Part shown: piece by piece, positions 12,720 through 34,694 of the stretch
How positions within the stretch are numbered: the stretch's first letter is position 1
Layout of the letters: every line of letters begins with the position of its first letter
Virus record (IMG/VR): IMGVR_UViG_3300030118_000584
Span: 1-34,694 of that record
Direction: 5' to 3' (one strand)
Source: a virus
DNA: 34,694 bases
The notes under the pieces: generated by a model
The model's database searches: none
What the model saw: only the letters and a program-made list of their open reading frames with translations
Told to the model about the DNA's origin: nothing
Position numbers and translations under genes: made by a program

Positions 12720-13137
12720 ACTAAATGGTGTCGATGATGCCATGAGAGCCGTAACAGAACTAGCTATTGAATATACAAAGATTGATTTTGGTGTAACGTG
12801 TGGGCTGCGTACTGTTGAAGAGCAACGTGCATTGGTAGATGCTGGTGCATCACAGACAATGAACAGCTTACATATCACAGGACAAGCTGTAGATGTTGTT
12901 GCTTATGTTGGGCCTAGAATATCTTGGGAGGTAAACCTATACGATGACATTGCTGAAGCATTCAAGATTGCTGGCATTGAACTTGGTACAGGTATTCGTT
13001 GGGGTGCAGCCTGGACGGTTCCAGATATCAGGGATTGGGATGGTACAATGGAAGAGGCTATGAACTCATACATTGATATCAGAAGGAAGGAAGGGAAGCG
13101 ACCATTTATAGACGCTCCCCACTTTGAACTTATATAA
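12688..13137 (+). CDS. endolysin, M15-family D-Ala-D-Ala carboxypeptidase type
   Basis: 149 aa. I chose ATG 12688 because GGAGGAG lies just upstream; the ATG at 12676 contains that site. It has the zinc-peptidase M15 signature: S60-L-H62-x-x-G-Q-A-V-D69 and, near the end, D-A-P-H145-F-E, giving the His/Asp/His zinc ligands. A CGLRTVEEQ segment before the first motif is also family-typical. It would cut the peptide cross-links of peptidoglycan once the holin opens the membrane. No signal peptide is visible, so it is holin-dependent. It ends in an 8-base convergent overlap with the minus-strand LexA-like gene. Confidence 0.9.
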   Translation: MFKLSERSMARLNGVDDAMRAVTELAIEYTKIDFGVTCGLRTVEEQRALVDAGASQTMNSLHITGQAVDVVAYVGPRISWEVNLYDDIAEAFKIAGIELGTGIRWGAAWTVPDIRDWDGTMEEAMNSYIDIRRKEGKRPFIDAPHFELI

Positions 13138-13378
13138 CAGCTATACCTCTTGGACTATTAATCTCTTTGAGAATATAACCTTTCCTGGCAAGGCAGTTTA
13201 ATATTCTATGAACATTAGATTGCGCTGCCATCTTTGGCATTGCTTGCTTGCCATCTATTTTACCTTTGCATATCTCTCTGACTGTTGGATAAACTCCAGA
13301 ACTTTTTTGATAGGCTACCAGGAAAGCTAGTACCTGTTGTTGTCTAGGTGTTAAACCTATTCTTTGTTTACTATCCAT
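13130..13378 (-). CDS. LexA-type DNA-binding domain without protease
   Basis: 82 aa. The whole protein matches only the N-terminal winged helix of LexA: LTPRQQQVLAFLVAYQKSSG, then YPTVREI, then NCLARKGYILKE and a closing RGIAVI. In LexA this is where the DNA-binding domain ends and the hinge, Ala-Gly cleavage site and Ser/Lys protease begin; here the gene stops. It should bind DNA but cannot be inactivated by RecA-stimulated self-cleavage. It is the last gene of the minus-strand recombination operon, overlapping recT by 8 bases. The GTTC-N7-GTTC box at 16901-16915 is its obvious candidate target. Confidence 0.85.
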   Translation of the reverse strand: MDSKQRIGLTPRQQQVLAFLVAYQKSSGVYPTVREICKGKIDGKQAMPKMAAQSNVHRILNCLARKGYILKEINSPRGIAVI

Positions 13379-14363
13379 CTGGGTTCTCCCTTGCCATAAT
13401 ACTTAGGCTCTTGTTCCATTCAAGCCTTTTGGTTTCCAACTCTTCAGCCAGCTGCTTGTCATCAAAGTTAGCCAGGACATCTTTGTTCATTTCTTTTAAC
13501 TCTTTCATCTTGGTTCTTTTAACTTGTGGTGTCAGAGATGAATGTGTTGAACGATACATTGCCAGCAGCAACTCATGGTATCTATTGGCCCAGTCTTGCT
13601 CGACATTGTAGTACTCAACCTTGGCATCATCATCACCATTTGGAATATGCAATGGCATTCCTGGTATGTCCTCCTGCTGTTCCTGCTGTTCAGCCTGGAA
13701 ATCATTAACCGCATCTTGATGTGCCTCTTCCTGGCTCATAGAAGCCTTCTCAAGGGCCTCTGTCAGCTGCGTGGTAGATTGTACATTAGACAGCTTTGGT
13801 GCCTGTTCTACGCCATCCTGAGGGGTTATATCTTTTTCAGGTGGGTAATCCATAGCTTCTTCTGCTGTAATCAAACCTTTGATAGCATCAGGGAAAGCAT
13901 CACGGATAGCAAAGCCTCTTGCTCTTAGCTGCATCATACGTTTTGGATACTGCCTCCATGGCCCTTGCTTATTTAACAAGCCTGCCTTCTGTGCATCAGC
14001 CTCACTAAACTGTGCAAGCGTTGCTTCCACCTCTCCATTGTTCAGCATTCTTTTTATTTCACAGAAAGCAATCGTGCCTTCCATCCATTCTCTGCATCCA
14101 GCAAAATTCTTATGCTGTTTTACCAGAGCAAGTAAACTATCTCCCCACAGAGATGGCCTACCATTTATGACTGCAATGTTTTGTAGGGCCTGCATTGGTG
14201 CAAGGCCTATCTCATATCCCCATTGCACAGCTACTAGTATGTTCGCTGGTTTACCTTGGAAATCTTTTGGAACCAGGCCAGACTTTGATAATGTTGTTGC
14301 AAACTCTTGTGCCTCTTTTAAATTTGTTGGCTCAAGTATCTGCCTCTTAATTATATTACTCAT
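13371..14363 (-). CDS. recT: RecT-family single-strand annealing protein
   Basis: 330 aa. Residues ~25-180 match RecT: LVPKDFQGKPANILVAVQWGYEIGLAPMQALQNIAVINGRPSLWGD, then PKRMMQLRARGFAIRDAFPDA. This is the DNA-binding annealing core. The C-terminal ~140 residues are acidic and Gln-rich, probably flexible. With the adjacent YqaJ exonuclease it forms a Red/RecET-type two-component pair that resects and anneals DNA ends, useful in replication without a phage polymerase and in gene exchange. It overlaps the YqaJ gene by 8 bases. Confidence 0.92.
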   Translation of the reverse strand: MSNIIKRQILEPTNLKEAQEFATTLSKSGLVPKDFQGKPANILVAVQWGYEIGLAPMQALQNIAVINGRPSLWGDSLLALVKQHKNFAGCREWMEGTIAFCEIKRMLNNGEVEATLAQFSEADAQKAGLLNKQGPWRQYPKRMMQLRARGFAIRDAFPDAIKGLITAEEAMDYPPEKDITPQDGVEQAPKLSNVQSTTQLTEALEKASMSQEEAHQDAVNDFQAEQQEQQEDIPGMPLHIPNGDDDAKVEYYNVEQDWANRYHELLLAMYRSTHSSLTPQVKRTKMKELKEMNKDVLANFDDKQLAEELETKRLEWNKSLSIMARENPDG

Positions 14364-15300
14364 TGGTAACCTCCTTGATTGAGAACGATGTACTATCTAT
14401 AAATTGACCAGGTACATCCACCATCGTTCTCTTAGGTTTCTGTGTTGTAACTGATTTGATTTGATAGCTGCCTACGTTCATCACGTCAGCACCTATACTA
14501 TCCATGTGTAACTCAAGTATCTGTTGATTATCTTTTGCAATCTTTGACCAGTGCTTGCTCTCAGCTTTTGCTTTCATGCAGTCAGTAGCAACTACCTCCA
14601 GGTCAAGGTTATCACCTTGCTTACCTTCAACAGTCACAACCTTTAGCTTCTCTTCTTTAGCTGGTGCAGCTGGTGGATAATCTTTATCCTTTTCCAACAG
14701 ATCCCAGAACTCCCTTGCTGCCTGGAGTATTTGATTACAAAGTTTCATGTCACGTTTGAATGCGTAAGTTACCAGCTTGCCTTGCTGCGTCATCACCAGG
14801 ACAACAGCCCATGGTAAATCTGCACACATCATTTGCTGGTGTACTTGTATCATCCAGTCTGGTTTACATTTACCAGTGTGGTAGAAATCTGTCTTGACCT
14901 CCAGAACACCTTTACCTTTTACAACAATGTCATTGATAACTAACTCACACTTGGCTGGTACCTTCAGTATCCTATCCAATGTTGCACCTAGCTTTTCTTC
15001 TTCTAACCTAAATGCTTTTTCAGGTTCTGTTGCCTGGCATTCCATGCCATCTTCCTTCAGTGTTTCTAGCCACCAGGGAACAATGGCGTGTTCAAGATAC
15101 GTACCTCGCAGCAGCGCATTCTTGTTAAATGCTTTCTGGTCTATCACCTCGACACCAGCAACTGCACGTTTGTGTTCATCCAGTTTATCTTGCCTGGTAT
15201 TTCCATATGCATCTTTGTGCAGCAATACAGCTGGCATTTCAGATGCACCTAACTCTTTTCCTGTGATAGTTTTTTTACCTGTTACTTTAACGTCTGGCAT
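14356..15300 (-). CDS. YqaJ-like phage exonuclease
   Basis: 314 aa. The N-terminus TITGKELGASEMPAVLLHKDAYG is the typical YqaJ/lambda-exonuclease opening. Residues ~70-150 contain GTYLEHAIVPWW, then VKGKGVLEVKTDFY, a PD-(D/E)XK-type E-V-K active site, then WMIQVHQQMMCADLPWAVV. The C-terminal ~90 residues are helical and less conserved. It would produce 3' single strands for RecT. The ATG overlaps the end of the small membrane protein upstream. Confidence 0.9.
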   Translation of the reverse strand: MPDVKVTGKKTITGKELGASEMPAVLLHKDAYGNTRQDKLDEHKRAVAGVEVIDQKAFNKNALLRGTYLEHAIVPWWLETLKEDGMECQATEPEKAFRLEEEKLGATLDRILKVPAKCELVINDIVVKGKGVLEVKTDFYHTGKCKPDWMIQVHQQMMCADLPWAVVLVMTQQGKLVTYAFKRDMKLCNQILQAAREFWDLLEKDKDYPPAAPAKEEKLKVVTVEGKQGDNLDLEVVATDCMKAKAESKHWSKIAKDNQQILELHMDSIGADVMNVGSYQIKSVTTQKPKRTMVDVPGQFIDSTSFSIKEVTNE

Positions 15301-15461
15301 ATCGGATCTCCCATTGTGTTATCGCAATAGCATTTATCATTCAGCGCACAACCTACCCAGATTGCTGCCCAGATAAATACAACAACTACCCCAGCTGCAA
15401 TCAGCTGGAGTATAAAAGACAGCCAGTCTTTGGCTGTCCAATCTTTAATTAAATCAATCAT
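15282..15461 (-). CDS. 59-aa membrane protein
   Basis: ATG at 15461 (coordinates descending), overlapping the TGA of the recombinase as ATGA; stop at 15284-15282, inside the first codons of the YqaJ gene. One hydrophobic segment, FILQLIAAGVVVVFIWAAIWVG (~16-37), is followed by a Cys-rich tail with four cysteines (VGCALNDKCYCD, DPIC). Coupling on both sides supports expression. Function unknown; a superinfection or envelope role is possible. Confidence 0.6.
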   Translation of the reverse strand: MIDLIKDWTAKDWLSFILQLIAAGVVVVFIWAAIWVGCALNDKCYCDNTMGDPICQTLK

Positions 15462-16150
15462 GCTGCCCTCCTCAGTGCATTTGATACTGTTGATGCATAC
15501 CAGTCACCGCCTCTTGCAGTCTGATATCCTTCCTGATTAAGATAAGCTGCAACCTCTTTCATAGTTTTACCCTGGCCCAGCTGGTCTTTGATTACTGGTA
15601 GGATTTTGTTTGCAAACTTATCTGCTCTTGCTTTGATAGATGCATTGCCTGCATCTGATGCAGCCTGGTTTGGATTACCCAAGCTGTATACTTTCTTGCC
15701 TGCCCTGGAGATAAAGTAACCTTGCTCTTTTATCTCAGCCTTTTGCCTGTCATGTGCTGCCTTGGTACGCTGGCTTATCTTGATACGTTCCATCTGTTGT
15801 ATGGTGAAATGTATACCAGCTGTTTCAGGTTCTAAGTTTGGCTGGTCTAATGCAATCATCTGCACCTGGCCTGACATTACATTGTCACGGTACCAGGTAG
15901 ATATCTCAGCCAGGTCACGTCCAAACCTGGACAGGTTCGCAGCTACTAAAGGGATGTTAAGTTTCTTTGATAACTTTGTGGCCCTGATAAACTCAGGACG
16001 TTCTGCGTTTGGTGTCTTACCTGATACACCTTCTTCTATGAACCAGTGAACCTTTGCACCAGGAAATGCTTTCTCAATCTGATGCTTTTGGTTTTCAACT
16101 GATTGCTCAGTAGTCGATACTCTGAGGCTTGCTACTATCTCTTTATGCAT
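15458..16150 (-). CDS. small serine recombinase (resolvase/invertase family)
   Basis: 230 aa. I chose ATG 16150 because GGAGGG lies 6 bases upstream; a longer start would run into the previous gene. Ser12 in R-V-S-T-T-E-Q is the catalytic nucleophile, and R75 and R78 in NLSRFGRDL are the conserved active-site arginines. Residues ~95-140 look like the long E-helix, and the C-terminus (GKTMKEVAAYLNQEGYQTARGGDWYASTVSNAL) is the helix-turn-helix-like DNA-binding part. It could resolve genome multimers, invert or swap segments, or integrate the phage. No integrase or attachment core is visible, so I leave its reaction open. Confidence 0.88.
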   Translation of the reverse strand: MHKEIVASLRVSTTEQSVENQKHQIEKAFPGAKVHWFIEEGVSGKTPNAERPEFIRATKLSKKLNIPLVAANLSRFGRDLAEISTWYRDNVMSGQVQMIALDQPNLEPETAGIHFTIQQMERIKISQRTKAAHDRQKAEIKEQGYFISRAGKKVYSLGNPNQAASDAGNASIKARADKFANKILPVIKDQLGQGKTMKEVAAYLNQEGYQTARGGDWYASTVSNALRRAA

Positions 16151-16310
16151 TGTCTGCCCTCCATTCTTGTAATACAAAACCTTCACCGCCAAAGTCTTTC
16201 CAGGTTATTGGCTGCCAGCTTTTATCTTGCTGTACAAAAAGAGATTGGCCCTTCCATTTACACAATGCTTCCTTGCCATTGCGACCTTTAATAATTACAA
16301 AATGTTCCAT
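16143..16310 (-). CDS. 55-aa hypothetical protein, first gene of recombination operon
   Basis: ATG at 16310, TAA at 16145-16143, with AGGGAG upstream. It is a compact beta-looking protein with four Trp (CKWKGQSLFVQQDKSWQPITWKDFGGEG). It overlaps the recombinase start by 8 bases. The promoter at 16344-16371 lies directly before it, so it opens the transcript that runs to the LexA-like gene. Not recognised. Confidence 0.6.
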   Translation of the reverse strand: MEHFVIIKGRNGKEALCKWKGQSLFVQQDKSWQPITWKDFGGEGFVLQEWRADNA

Positions 16311-16324
16311 TTTGTTTTCTCCCT

Positions 16325-16371
16325 GTTCGTGTCATTTACTTTTAATATACTTATTTAATCTGGTTTTGCAA
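16325..16371 (-). promoter_or_regulatory. sigma70-type promoter P2 with degenerate LexA box
   Basis: On the minus strand, TTGCAA (16371-16366), a 16-base spacer and TATATT (16349-16344) form a reasonable promoter in the 69-base gap before the 55-aa gene. Just downstream, at 16339-16325, lies GTAA-ATGACAC-GAAC. Its last 11 bases are identical to the perfect box in P1, but the upstream half-site has changed from GAAC to GTAA. The same element, at the same place relative to -10, at two promoters argues against chance. Regulation here would be weaker. Confidence 0.6.
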
Positions 16372-16379
16372 ATCATAAT

Positions 16380-16883
16380 TTATTTGTTCACGTCCTCTTT
16401 GATTTGCTCCAGTGTCTGCTTTGTCCAGGCCCTTTCCTCTGCATCAGGCTGCCTATCTCTTACAGCTACCCATTGCAATAAACCTCTATCATGTTCAGGC
16501 TGGCCCTTTACCCACCTAGCTTTCTGTAACCAGAAGCCAGAAGCCTTGAGGCTTGCGCCACATTCATTAGCTTTTGTGTAAGTTATGATTACTCTGTAGC
16601 CCATTGCGAAGCAGGCATCCTTTACCTTGCCTATCAAAAAACTAGCAGTATTTTTTTTGGCATCAGGTCTGATGCACAACCTTCTCAATTCAACGTGGTC
16701 ATATCTTTTAGACCAGGCACTGCTGCATCGATCTACTGTAGCAACACCAAGCAGCTTTCCTCCCCAGCCTTGATGAGAAGAAACACCTATTGAAAACATA
16801 TGCCTCTTGAGTGGTGGACTGTGACGGTGGAATGCCTCAATAAATTCCTGGGCCTCCCTTAATTTTAACGCTGTGTGATACAT
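16380..16883 (-). CDS. Mom / XF1762-like GNAT protein
   Basis: 167 aa. The sequence follows the XF1762 family, related to phage Mu Mom: FHRHSPPLKRHMFSIGV (~18-34), LLGVATVDRC (45-53), then the acyl-CoA-binding-type stretch ELRRLCIRPDAKKNTASFLIGKV (65-87) and a terminal ASLKASGFW. Mom modifies adenines in phage DNA to methylcarbamoyl-adenine and protects it from host restriction enzymes. XF1762 proteins share the GNAT fold, but I do not know that this one modifies DNA. It is the only gene between promoters P1 and P2. P1 carries a LexA box, so induction with the SOS response is likely. Confidence 0.75.
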   Translation of the reverse strand: MYHTALKLREAQEFIEAFHRHSPPLKRHMFSIGVSSHQGWGGKLLGVATVDRCSSAWSKRYDHVELRRLCIRPDAKKNTASFLIGKVKDACFAMGYRVIITYTKANECGASLKASGFWLQKARWVKGQPEHDRGLLQWVAVRDRQPDAEERAWTKQTLEQIKEDVNK

Positions 16884-16900: not shown

Positions 16901-16915
16901 GTTCGTGTCATGTTC
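16901..16915. promoter_or_regulatory. LexA/SOS box, GTTC-N7-GTTC
   Basis: GTTC-GTGTCAT-GTTC is a perfect match to the SOS operator of Alphaproteobacteria (GTTC-N7-GTTC). It starts 6 bases after the -10 element of P1 and so covers the expected transcription start, the best place for repression. It could be read by host LexA, by the phage LexA-like protein, or by both. Confidence 0.75.
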
Positions 16916-16921
16916 TGTATT

Positions 16922-16951
16922 GTTATATGGGAATGAATAATATATTGTCAA
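16922..16951 (-). promoter_or_regulatory. sigma70-type promoter P1 for the Mom-like gene
   Basis: On the minus strand, TTGACA (16951-16946, perfect -35), an 18-base spacer and TATAAC (16927-16922, 5 of 6 of the -10 consensus). The expected start near 16915 lies inside the LexA box and ~32 bases from the ATG of the Mom-like gene, which has AGGG before it. An ATG at 16911 opens an 8-codon frame (MTRTIKGK) that ends one base before that ATG; it may be chance. The plus-strand promoter for the opposite operon must also lie in 16916-16985, but I see no good hexamer pair. Confidence 0.7.
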
Positions 16952-19208: not shown

Positions 19209-19621
19209 TGGGTAAGAGGGTAGTGCCACCTGTTGGTAGATTTGGAGGTGTGGGCGAAATTCGTAAAAGGCTGCGAGGCTCACAGATAATCTACGACAAT
19301 CGTGATGGCCTGGCGACTGAGATGCTAGGTATAGCAAAGGCAAAAGTAACTGATATTTTTGATTGGAATGGTAAGAAGCTAGAACTGAAGGATGCTAAAG
19401 ATATCCCAGATCATGCGCTGGCTGCTATCAAGAAGATTAAGATTACACCTACCCAGGGCGGTGATGACATCATTGAGGTGGAATTGCTGGATAAAGTAAG
19501 AATGTTTCAGCTGCTGGCTAAGTCTGCTGGTCTGTTAGATACAGAGAAAGATGCGGATAAGCCAGCGGTTGTTGATATACAAATGGTAATGCCAGGGGAG
19601 GACGAAGATGATAAAAAATAA
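19208..19621 (+). CDS. terS: terminase small subunit
   Basis: 137 aa. The C-terminal half has the terminase small-subunit pattern: DHALAAIKKIKIT, then I-E-V-E-L-L-D-K-V-R-M-F-Q-L-L-A-K-S-A-G-L-L. In this family that segment follows the DNA-binding domain and builds the ring that recognises the packaging site. The N-terminal half is shorter than a classical helix-turn-helix. The acidic end (GEDEDDKK) overlaps the start of the PP-loop gene by 14 bases. The position upstream of the large subunit supports the call. Confidence 0.75.
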   Translation: MGKRVVPPVGRFGGVGEIRKRLRGSQIIYDNRDGLATEMLGIAKAKVTDIFDWNGKKLELKDAKDIPDHALAAIKKIKITPTQGGDDIIEVELLDKVRMFQLLAKSAGLLDTEKDADKPAVVDIQMVMPGEDEDDKK

Positions 19622-20444
19622 ACTCAGGGTGTTGTCATTAGGTGCTGGTGTTCAATCAAGCACACTAGCATTTATGATAGAAAAGGGAGAGGTGCCTATG
19701 GTTGACTGTGCAATATTTGCAGACACAGGCGCAGAACCTAAACAAGTTTATGAGTGGTTAGATTACATCAAAAAAAATGTAAGTTATCCTATTCATATAG
19801 TGCAAGAAAGAAATCTTGAGGATGATGTTCTTGATGCAGCAAACGGAGAATACAATAGATTTACTATTCCGTTTTATACGTTGAACCCAACAACAGGAAA
19901 GAAAGGTTTTTTGCGTAGACAATGCACAGGCGATTATAAAATCAAACCTATTATCAAAGAAATTAGAAGATTACTGGGTTACTCAAAAGGCGAAAGAGTA
20001 CCCTACGGAGAAACTAAAGTAGAAATGCTGATGGGTATATCTGTAGATGAAATGATTAGAATGAGGAATAACGAACTAAAATATATTGAGAACCAGTATC
20101 CTTTAATTAATGATTTTAGAATGAAAAGGCATGATTGTATTGCCTGGATGGAGGCCAATAAATATCCGCTGCCTCAAAAGAGTGCTTGTTATTTTTGTCC
20201 TTTTCACAGTCATTCTACCTGGAAAGATTTAAAAAAGAAACATCCAGAAGAATATAAAAAAGCAGTAGAGATGGATAAGAAAATTAGAAACACTGAAAAA
20301 TTTAAAGGACGTGATGAGTTTGATGAATTTTTTTTACACGCCAGCTGCAAGCCTTTAGACGAGGCAGTAGCTGATGATAAACAACAAGATTTATTTTTAG
20401 ATGAATTTAACAACGTGTGTGACGAAGGTATGTGCGGTGTTTAA
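19608..20444 (+). CDS. PP-loop ATP pyrophosphatase (PAPS-reductase-like), inserted between terminase genes
   Basis: 278 aa with GGGGAGG upstream. Residues 9-18 (LSLGAGVQSS) are the PP-loop variant seen in phage PAPS-reductase/alpha-hydrolase proteins; ADTGAEP (39-44) and RRQCTGDYKIKP (103-114) are the other nucleotide-site motifs. C194-x2-C197 and C271-x4-C276 could hold zinc or an iron-sulfur cluster. Relatives activate substrates by adenylation: sulfate reduction, tRNA thiolation and DndC in DNA phosphorothioation. The substrate here is unknown. It is more AT-rich than its neighbour (one sampled line 17/60 G+C against 28/60 in terS) and splits terS from terL, which suggests a later insertion. 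Confidence 0.8.
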   Translation: MIKNKLRVLSLGAGVQSSTLAFMIEKGEVPMVDCAIFADTGAEPKQVYEWLDYIKKNVSYPIHIVQERNLEDDVLDAANGEYNRFTIPFYTLNPTTGKKGFLRRQCTGDYKIKPIIKEIRRLLGYSKGERVPYGETKVEMLMGISVDEMIRMRNNELKYIENQYPLINDFRMKRHDCIAWMEANKYPLPQKSACYFCPFHSHSTWKDLKKKHPEEYKKAVEMDKKIRNTEKFKGRDEFDEFFLHASCKPLDEAVADDKQQDLFLDEFNNVCDEGMCGV

Positions 20445-32505: not shown

Positions 32506-34475
32506 TGGATATCTTCACTAAACAATTCAATAAAGATTATTTTGGTAGCGGTAGCAGCGAGGGTTCTAGTGATGAGTATTCAATCTACTACGACCCAAAT
32601 ACAGGTGAGCAAAAATATTATCCTGGTGAGTTGCCTTTGAAAACAGGTCTGCCTCCTGAGATTGAGGAAGGCACACCACAAGCTATGGAGTATAAGAAAA
32701 AACAGATTGAGGTCTATGGTTTTCCATATGAAATGATTTCTGATAGCGAAATAGAAAGAGTTAAAAAGCTACGACAAGAAACAGTAGTCGATGATCCTAA
32801 TTGGGCTAGAGCATCTAAAATGCTTAGAGCATTTATGCAGCCTGGTGCAGAAGAGTTTAAGACAGATAAAGAATATGCAGAGTGGGGCATAGACTTTATG
32901 TCTAGTTTTGAGAATAACTTTACTAACATGGTTATTGATGTTGTTAAGTTAGAGAGTGCGCCACCTCAAGCTATGCACGCTATGTACTATCTAATGGAAA
33001 CAGCAGACAGAGAAGGCGTATTAGCGGAGAACTTTTGGCGTGGTGCCTATTACACTGTATTTGATTACGCTAACTTGGTTGGCCTGGGAACTATGGGAAT
33101 TGGTCTTATTGGTAAGTCAGCTGGTAAACAGTTAACCAAAGTAGGATTTAAGGAAGCACTAAAAAGAATTGTTATGTCTAAGCCTGATGCATCTGACCTT
33201 GCCATGATTGCAGAAGGTGCAACGTATGCTGGAGGATTTGCAACTGGTAGAGAAATACAAACTGTTCGTGCTGGTAAGAAAGATGAGGTAGATTTAGGAA
33301 ATATTGCTACATCAACAGCAATAGGTGGAACTATAGGCCCTGCATTAAGCAGAACAGGTCAGGTTGCTATGGAAGGTGGTAAACGTGTTGCTGGTAAAAT
33401 ATCAGATGCAATATCACCATCAGCTGAAAGCGTTGCTGCTAGAAATGTAGACCAGGTTATTGATGATACAACTGGTGTTCTTGAAGAAAGTTTTAACAAA
33501 GGCAAACAAACAGAAGAGCCTAAACCAAAACCATTTCCTGTTCCTGACAATCCATTTGCAGGTAAAAATACAAAACCATTTTCTTTAGCAACATCAAAAG
33601 AAGAATTGATTGAAGGTGCAAAAATAGCAGAGGATGCTAGAACCTGGTACACAAAACATAATGAAACTATTGGAGAATTGTTTGGCGAAGATGCACAACT
33701 ATTTAAAGAACTAATTGGTGTTACATCTCAACAAGCATCAGTAGATGAAAACATAGCTAGAGCCATGATGGCCTATGACTATTTAAAAATACATGGAACT
33801 TTTGCAAAACTAAAAGCAAAAGATAAAAATGTAAAAAATCCTACTGTGCATCATCTACCATTACTATCAGGTGTTATAGGTAATCTTAGAAGGTTAGAAG
33901 GAGTAGACCCATCTGCTACTGGTAAACTTGCTACCCAAAAGGGTATCAGGGAAAGAATGGGTATGGAGCCAACAGAAACTACCTTTGGTATCAAAACATA
34001 TCTAGGAGGTAACAAAGTGCCTGATTTTGTAGAGGCTATGTTTGAAGGAACAGACGAGGTAGTCACTATGGACAGGCATATGATACAGATTTTGTTTGGT
34101 CAAAAAGCACAAGTAAATAATAGCAGTATGGCTGAAGGTAAGCGAATTGTTACTGAAATAGCTAACGAATTAGGGTGGACACCTAAGGAAACACAGGCTG
34201 CAATTTGGAGCTTTAATCAAATCAAAGATAGTGATATAGTAAAAAGAAAAAAGGTAGATTTAACTGATGTCAGAGATTACAAAAAAGCAATCGAAGAAAG
34301 AAGAGATGCCATCCTCGAACTCGTCACAAAGTTTCGTGACCCTGAAGGACAGAGCAAGAGCGTTCAATCTGGGAGCAATACTGTTGGAAAAGATACAGGA
34401 ACGTCAACTCAAGGCAACACAACAAACAAAGGAGTAGATACAACAGATCCTCCTGGTAACGAGGGAGGTGAATAG
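32505..34475 (+). CDS. internal virion protein with HhH/DUF7178-like domain, allele 2
   Basis: 656 aa from ATG 32505 (TAATG with the previous stop). The first ~185 residues lie left of the window's repeat; 183-325 match allele 1; then the sequence differs. Residues ~365-570 carry the same domain type in a divergent version: DARTWYTKHN, FKELIGVTSQQASVDENIARA, G-N-K-V-P-D-F-V-E-A-M-F, VVTMDRHMIQILFG, ANELGWTPKETQAAIW. Lys to Asp spacing is 19, close to that in endonuclease III. The ~300-residue extra region of allele 1 is missing. The tail is GVDTTDPPGNEGGE. Probably ejected into the host; enzymatic activity unproven. Confidence 0.78.
   Translation: MDIFTKQFNKDYFGSGSSEGSSDEYSIYYDPNTGEQKYYPGELPLKTGLPPEIEEGTPQAMEYKKKQIEVYGFPYEMISDSEIERVKKLRQETVVDDPNWARASKMLRAFMQPGAEEFKTDKEYAEWGIDFMSSFENNFTNMVIDVVKLESAPPQAMHAMYYLMETADREGVLAENFWRGAYYTVFDYANLVGLGTMGIGLIGKSAGKQLTKVGFKEALKRIVMSKPDASDLAMIAEGATYAGGFATGREIQTVRAGKKDEVDLGNIATSTAIGGTIGPALSRTGQVAMEGGKRVAGKISDAISPSAESVAARNVDQVIDDTTGVLEESFNKGKQTEEPKPKPFPVPDNPFAGKNTKPFSLATSKEELIEGAKIAEDARTWYTKHNETIGELFGEDAQLFKELIGVTSQQASVDENIARAMMAYDYLKIHGTFAKLKAKDKNVKNPTVHHLPLLSGVIGNLRRLEGVDPSATGKLATQKGIRERMGMEPTETTFGIKTYLGGNKVPDFVEAMFEGTDEVVTMDRHMIQILFGQKAQVNNSSMAEGKRIVTEIANELGWTPKETQAAIWSFNQIKDSDIVKRKKVDLTDVRDYKKAIEERRDAILELVTKFRDPEGQSKSVQSGSNTVGKDTGTSTQGNTTNKGVDTTDPPGNEGGE
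33051..33479. repeat. right copy of homology block 1-429
   Basis: Partner of 1-429, at offset 33050. Differences increase from left to right (for example GATGTAGGAA against GATTTAGGAA), and similarity ends within a Thr-Gly-Val codon run, where the two alleles start to differ. Confidence 0.9.
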
Positions 34476-34694
34476 TGTCTATACCTAAAGACGAACTAGA
34501 TAAATTATCGTCTGTATCTACAAACCCTACATATGCAGATAACGATACTGTCACAGAAAAAGTTATTGATGGTACTGGTAAACCAGCTGATGAAGAGTTT
34601 ATAAAGCCAGTACAGACTGAGTACCCTGATGGGGAACCAGTACAATACGCACAAGCTAACATTACTAAAAAGATTACTGGTGTTGTAACAGACG
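34431..34694. repeat. right copy of homology block 2065-2328
   Basis: Partner of 2065-2328, at offset 32366. It includes the end of allele 2 and the first 73 codons of the large ejection-protein gene, with scattered mostly silent differences. Confidence 0.88.
34475..34694 (+). CDS. large internal virion protein, N-terminal fragment (cut by window end)
   Basis: GTG 34475 overlaps the preceding stop exactly as at 2109. The frame stays open to the window end and encodes the same start as the 1099-aa protein (SIPKDELDKLSSVSTNPTYADNDTVTEKVIDGTG), with a few substitutions (S-V-N to S-T-N, T-L-T to T-V-T, I-N-P to I-K-P). It is the same gene from a second variant or the second copy of a repeat. Confidence 0.88.
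   Translation, partial: MSIPKDELDKLSSVSTNPTYADNDTVTEKVIDGTGKPADEEFIKPVQTEYPDGEPVQYAQANITKKITGVVTD

Follow-up and report, generated by a model that had tools for sequence, protein, structure and literature searches.

A conserved promoter and direct-repeat operator head the leftward operon of a podovirus-like phage and may be read by the phage's own LexA-type protein

The leftward operon of the virus catalogued as IMG/VR record IMGVR_UViG_3300030118_000584 begins with what we regard as a real, conserved control switch, formed by a near-consensus promoter (P1) and a direct repeat, GAAC-ATGACAC-GAAC, placed immediately downstream of it. The whole record, 34,694 nucleotides in length, was analysed and is referred to here as the window. 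The pattern of conservation assigns the operator to the whole early operon and not to the Mom-like gene that lies directly behind it. The switch is more likely to be read by a miniature LexA-type protein of the phage than by the SOS repressor of the host, and we put it at slightly better than even that this 82-aa protein, encoded at the far end of the operon, acts through the operator to turn off the early genes, its own included.

The window carries podovirus-type terminase, portal, head and tail genes. Its control region is divergent, with a gene for an Arc-like ribbon-helix-helix (RHH) protein transcribed rightward and the operon leftward (Table 1). The leftward genes encode, in order, the Mom-like protein, a 55-aa open reading frame (ORF) for which a profile search returned no convincing family, a serine recombinase, a 59-aa protein, a RecE/YqaJ-like nuclease, a RecT-like protein and the 82-aa LexA-type protein; this order is kept among relatives, with the LexA-type gene last. 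The recombinase likely starts at an internal ATG, its relatives beginning at MHK. Two strong terminator-like hairpins lie on the minus strand within the 59-aa ORF, at the recombinase/YqaJ-like junction (window 15387-15439), and could possibly attenuate the operon. Elsewhere, a phosphoadenosine phosphosulfate reductase-like gene (phrog_424; window 19608-20444) is situated close to the terminase gene. The window ends (1-2328 and 33051-34694) are imperfect mutual repeats (1-429 against 33051-33479, 95%; 2064-2328 against 34430-34694, 93%) that look as if two strain variants had been assembled together or an end region duplicated, and the genes within them are probably pieces of one gene.

Table 1. 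Features of the leftward operon and its control region, in window coordinates
Feature	Coordinates	Strand	Basis or remark
Divergent Arc-like RHH protein, 59 aa	16986..17165	+	phrog_3431, E 9e-5; adjoins P1 in relatives too
P1 promoter	16922..16951	-	TTGACA 16951-16946, 18-nt spacer, TATAAC 16927-16922; read directly and kept in relatives
Operator, direct repeat GAAC-ATGACAC-GAAC	16901..16915	-	sequence reading; half-site invariance; 11-bp repeat spacing shared with further clades
Mom-like GNAT-fold protein, 167 aa, first cassette after P1	16380..16883	-	phrog_1384; AlphaFold model
P2 promoter (TTGCAA / TATATT) with half-degenerate operator	16325..16371	-	conserved ahead of the recombinase gene in relatives
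55-aa ORF, P2-recombinase interval	16143..16310	-	missing from relative L002
Small serine recombinase	15458..16192	-	PF00239 and partial PF07508
59-aa operon protein, function unassigned	15282..15461	-	conserved in relatives
RecE/YqaJ-like exonuclease	14356..15300	-	phrog_434, E 1.3e-23
RecT-like single-strand annealing protein	13371..14363	-	phrog_561, E 8.8e-52
Stand-alone LexA-type DNA-binding protein, 82 aa, last operon gene	13130..13378	-	PF01726, E 2.1e-10

The promoter and the repeat were confirmed on the minus strand as a preliminary description of this DNA had given them, with six nucleotides (AATACA) between the TATAAC element and the operator. That description wrote the repeat as GTTC-N7-GTTC, which is the plus-strand reading of the same duplex; the minus strand, on which the promoter was given, reads GAAC-N7-GAAC, and the mixing of strands is immaterial for a duplex operator. 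P1 is near consensus with the exception of the final base of its -10 element, and because the simple promoter scan demands T at that position, P1 is absent from the scan list. If transcription starts about 7 nt past the -10 element, the operator would cover about +1 to +15, so the earlier placement of the repeat over the start holds for the predicted transcript and not for the Mom-like start codon, which lies at 16883-16881. By itself the 15-mer motif is not above chance: counting both strands, 0.68 copies are expected in a window, and 48 of 100 shuffles contain one or more. What makes it convincing as more than a chance occurrence is that it sits just past a near-consensus promoter and has been conserved among relatives.

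Relatives with the same layout were collected by RecT-based and pattern searches. In an alignment of 12 records, of which the window is one, the spacer varies and none of the eight half-site bases does. P1 and GAAC-N7-GAAC occupy the same place in L006/L008, L010/L018/L019, L014/L020, L016 and L154, where the spacer reads ATGACAC, ATGGCAC or ATGAACA, and in L012/L013 the repeat (GAAC-CTAATGA-GAAC) has been retained despite a decayed promoter. When the sequences are reduced to five distinct blocks, 8/8 half-site columns are invariant against 7/18 of the others (Fisher p 0.004, with no correction for relatedness). Other GAAC-N7-GAAC sites examined in the relatives fall in recombination genes or elsewhere, with no recognised promoter, at about the level of chance.

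A second promoter-like element, P2 (16371-16344), begins beside the mom stop codon, which bears out the earlier statement that the Mom-like gene is the only one before the next promoter. It is followed by a copy of the operator with a single good half-site (GTAA-ATGACAC-GAAC, 16339-16325), and such a half-degenerate copy is also present at P2 of the relatives examined. No terminator-like site was found on the minus strand between P1 and P2, and therefore transcription from P1 probably reads through past P2. Just upstream of the P2 -35 element (window about 16377-16393) the sequence GAACAAATNAATT is conserved even where the preceding genes differ, and it is possibly the site of another regulator.

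That a Mom-family gene stands directly behind P1, as had been proposed, is upheld by several observations. The 167-aa protein matches phrog_1384 (E 1.2e-22). In the PDB, its AlphaFold model (pLDDT 91) is closest to the S124A structure of Mu Mom (8bv8), by a narrow margin over other GNAT enzymes. Ser81 of the window protein, invariant in 30 homologues, is aligned with Mu Ser124, which is altered in the inactive Mu mutant. The Pfam Mom score is 22.6 bits, under that family's cut-off of 27.1, and solved structures gave no match by sequence. Membership in a wider Mom-like family is well supported by profile and model, and the gene may have a role in DNA modification.

The preliminary description had further taken the operator to be there for Mom, and this claim does not survive. 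The gene behind the switch changes among relatives, the slot between P1 and P2 holding the Mom-like gene in the window, a 306-aa ArdC-like protein in six relatives (L006, L008, L014, L016, L020 and L154; that of L006 matches phrog_7245, 'anti-restriction protein', at E 3e-76) and two small proteins in L010/L018/L019. In the 250 bp upstream of 80 Mom-like relatives there are no GTTC/GAAC-N7 repeats, against 0.81 expected. A Mom gene 96% identical to that of the window occurs in record L002, where another gene stands directly upstream, in unrelated DNA with no promoter; the contig ends 400 bp upstream of this Mom gene, which could nonetheless be part of the same operon. A Mom-specific element was ruled out on these three grounds, and for the same reasons the operator is assigned to the operon. 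Separately, L083/L263 carry a different Mom-like gene (39%) in a rightward replication operon, and because of this Mom is considered not to be tied to the leftward operon. The interval behind P1 is best described, from its gene content, as an exchangeable anti-restriction slot (Mom-like or ArdC-like), and an operon head that swaps unrelated genes of this kind would be a place to seek new anti-defence genes in marine phages.

More distant phages, with LexA-type proteins of about 48% identity or lower, keep the layout and carry other repeats at the operator position: GTAC-AAAGTGT-GTAC in L086/L173, GTAC-AAACTGT-GTAC in L084/L088, GAAC-N7-GAAC-N7-GAAC in L093 and L266, GAAC-N7-AAAC in L083/L174, and weaker repeats in L090/L175, L087 and L096. 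In a motif-free measure that took one sequence per clade, left out the window clade and used dinucleotide-preserving shuffles, the -10 elements in the distant phages being assigned by eye, runs of matches at a lag of 11 stood out and no other lag did (p = 0.0002). Both the half-site and the recognition helix of the LexA-type protein differ between sister clades, and the 11-bp repeat persists; constant spacing with paired change of half-sites is, in our reading of these alignments, the trace expected of a regulator co-evolving with its operator. The distant promoters also contain a second 11-bp direct repeat within the -35/-10 spacer (0/5000 shuffles), which reads GATA-N7-GATA or GCTA-N7-GCTA, both halves changing together (L173, L174, L175, L177, L266 and L093). 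This second repeat is not recognisable in the P1 spacer of the window itself; in the distant relatives it is likely a site for the RHH protein.

The candidate reader encoded by the last gene of the operon had been recognised earlier as a LexA-type protein, and this identification is borne out. The AlphaFold model of the 82-aa chain (pLDDT 89.6) finds its best PDB matches in the LexA-DNA complexes 3jso/3jsp, at an rmsd of about 1 A, so that both PF01726 and the fold match point to a winged-helix LexA DNA-binding domain. The chain ends after this domain, and the S24 autopeptidase/dimerisation domain is absent. Its recognition helix reads A-Q-S-N-V-H-R-I, of which the His-Arg is common to 23/23 readable alphaproteobacterial LexA sequences, most with S-K-S-G-I-H-R-L. 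Binding by the 82-aa protein, repression, the transcription start, early timing and any anti-restriction activity are inferred. Upon entry of the phage DNA, host RNA polymerase would initiate at P1 and produce a transcript with the anti-restriction cassette first, the recombination genes next and the 82-aa protein last. That protein would then bind GAAC-N7-GAAC at the transcript start and the weaker copy at P2, occluding both promoters, and the resulting shutdown would act as delayed negative feedback that confines early expression to a pulse. Because the protein has no dimerisation domain, binding as cooperating monomers on one face of the DNA would make sense, and half-sites set head to tail at a distance of one helical turn would suit it; as the peptidase domain is missing too, RecA-stimulated cleavage would not be expected to release the operator. 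The invariant half-sites beside a variable spacer, their survival in L012/L013, the P2 copy, the conserved gene order with the LexA-type gene at its end, the LexA domain itself, the His-Arg helix, the joint change of half-site and helix in sister clades and the exchangeable first gene were counted in favour of this model. Against it were counted the missing dimerisation domain, the single good half-site at P2 and L175, in which a similar His-Arg helix is paired with poorly matching half-sites.

If instead host LexA is the reader, it would repress P1 from what is then an alphaproteobacterial SOS box, and damage to the DNA, or induction, would free the Mom-like and recombination genes. This was the preliminary reading, which saw a perfect box, and we consider it unlikely. 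The GTTC-N7-GTTC core at the promoter is indeed the published alphaproteobacterial LexA motif (PMC3323433), and of 23 alphaproteobacterial lexA genes examined, 16 are preceded by a box of this kind, which in 15 has the GAAC orientation found at P1. The spacer, however, does not fit: a model of the YAAACTA preference, built from boxes of alphaproteobacterial lexA promoters only, most of which score 5 to 9 leave-one-out, gives the window spacer -4.8, a value reached by 38% of random spacers. Measured against the same boxes, the P1 spacers of active phage promoters are no better than random. In sister clades, moreover, this position is occupied by GTAC or other half-sites, and the phage has a candidate reader of its own at the end of the operon, so that host SOS control is left unsupported. 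The small serine recombinase is the only integrase-type gene recognised in the window, and a lysogenic state is not evident.

No near relative was found in the phage collection, and the closest isolate by terminase (65%) is Methylophilales phage MEP301, which infects OM43 bacteria and so speaks against the host-LexA reading. The window holds no tRNA genes that could give a host clue; a single-protein terminase scan of genome contigs returned no match, and an alignment scan returned only distant matches in metagenome-assembled genomes (MAGs) of mixed phyla. A related prophage within a Hyphomicrobiales contig favours the host-LexA reading. It comprises L271 and L307-L309, on a 186-kb contig of a Hyphomicrobiales MAG, with 61-62% terminase identity and seemingly integrated in the chromosome; its neighbours are IspD-like, TatD-like and GlmS-like by eye, with an integrase-like ORF on the flank. 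The wider phage family may accordingly include prophages of Alphaproteobacteria, and if the host of the window phage is alphaproteobacterial, its LexA might also bind the operator.

Arc/Mnt-type repressors control transcription in both directions. The RHH protein of the window could in like manner bind the 11-bp repeat and govern both sides, the LexA-type protein acting elsewhere, an explanation to which we also give a low probability. Its gene lies right beside the control region and is kept there in relatives, and the DNA-facing strands are similar in the GAAC clades (VPMYVK in the window, VPLYLR in L093/L266), set against VVLFCR in the GTAC clade. The RHH protein thus varies with the half-sites too, so that covariation is no argument for the LexA-type protein in particular; choosing between the two by half-site covariation was dropped, since both vary. 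Against the RHH protein stand the second 11-bp repeat in the distant promoter spacers, which is an equally good RHH site and leaves the downstream repeat for the other regulator, and the GAAC/GTTC core with N7 direct spacing, both of which are LexA features. It is very improbable that no regulator is involved and that the repeat arose by chance or belongs to the structure of the initially transcribed region, as the expected number of matches per window and the close relatedness of the window-clade sequences might suggest; half-sites invariant beside a changing spacer, survival in L012/L013, the P2 copy and the 11-bp architecture elsewhere weigh against it.

If repression by the 82-aa protein is the correct reading, it shows how a LexA DNA-binding domain that has no cleavage domain can turn off a phage early operon by acting on direct repeats. 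The natural regulator-operator pairs (GAAC, GTAC and others) would allow the specificity of LexA-type recognition helices to be tested, as well as the direct-repeat mode of alphaproteobacterial LexA. A more speculative extension, which we think rather improbable, is that a family of marine phages evolved a minimal LexA-type repressor, without dimerisation domain and with operators of head-to-tail repeats spaced by one helical turn, and that in the window clade, where the operator coincides with the alphaproteobacterial SOS box, host LexA competes with the phage protein for this early promoter. Such competition, if true, would tie anti-restriction and recombination genes to the DNA-damage state of the host.

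Several known systems can be set beside this switch. Control of Mu mom involves Dam, C and Com. The Mom-family fold and the S124-equivalent residue are common to Mu and the window, whereas no Com-like overlapping gene is seen beside the window Mom-like gene, which lies in a leftward early operon with recombination genes and not behind a late promoter. The Mu mom promoter depends on activation by C (PMC4461284), whereas P1 is near consensus. MEP301 (PMC8024684) has a similar order of recombinase, YqaJ and annealing-protein genes, but neither the operator motif nor PF01726, both present in the window, is matched in it. With alphaproteobacterial LexA and its SOS box (PMC3323433) the phage shares the half-sites, the N7 direct spacing, the polarity relative to the gene and the His-Arg helix; it differs in the peptidase/dimerisation domain, absent from the phage protein, and in the YAAACTA spacer of the lexA boxes. 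Closest is gp6 of the Bacillus thuringiensis tectivirus GIL01, a truncated phage LexA homologue that works with host LexA and gp7 (PMC6182141). Like the 82-aa protein it is a stand-alone LexA DNA-binding domain encoded by a phage, and it stands among the early genes and regulates the phage's own promoters, as is proposed here. However, the site of gp6 is a palindrome, GaCACA-nn-TGTGaC, that overlaps the -35 element of a late promoter, which gp6 activates (PMC6182141), whereas the window has a direct repeat, placed beyond the -10 element of the protein's own operon; as this nearest known truncated phage LexA is an activator, it was counted against repression by the 82-aa protein. No precedent for a LexA domain that stands alone and has direct-repeat operators at the early operon encoding it turned up in the open-access literature searched. 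The stand-alone phage LexA domain is thus known from GIL01 gp6, and direct-repeat operators at the protein's own early operon would be the new part.
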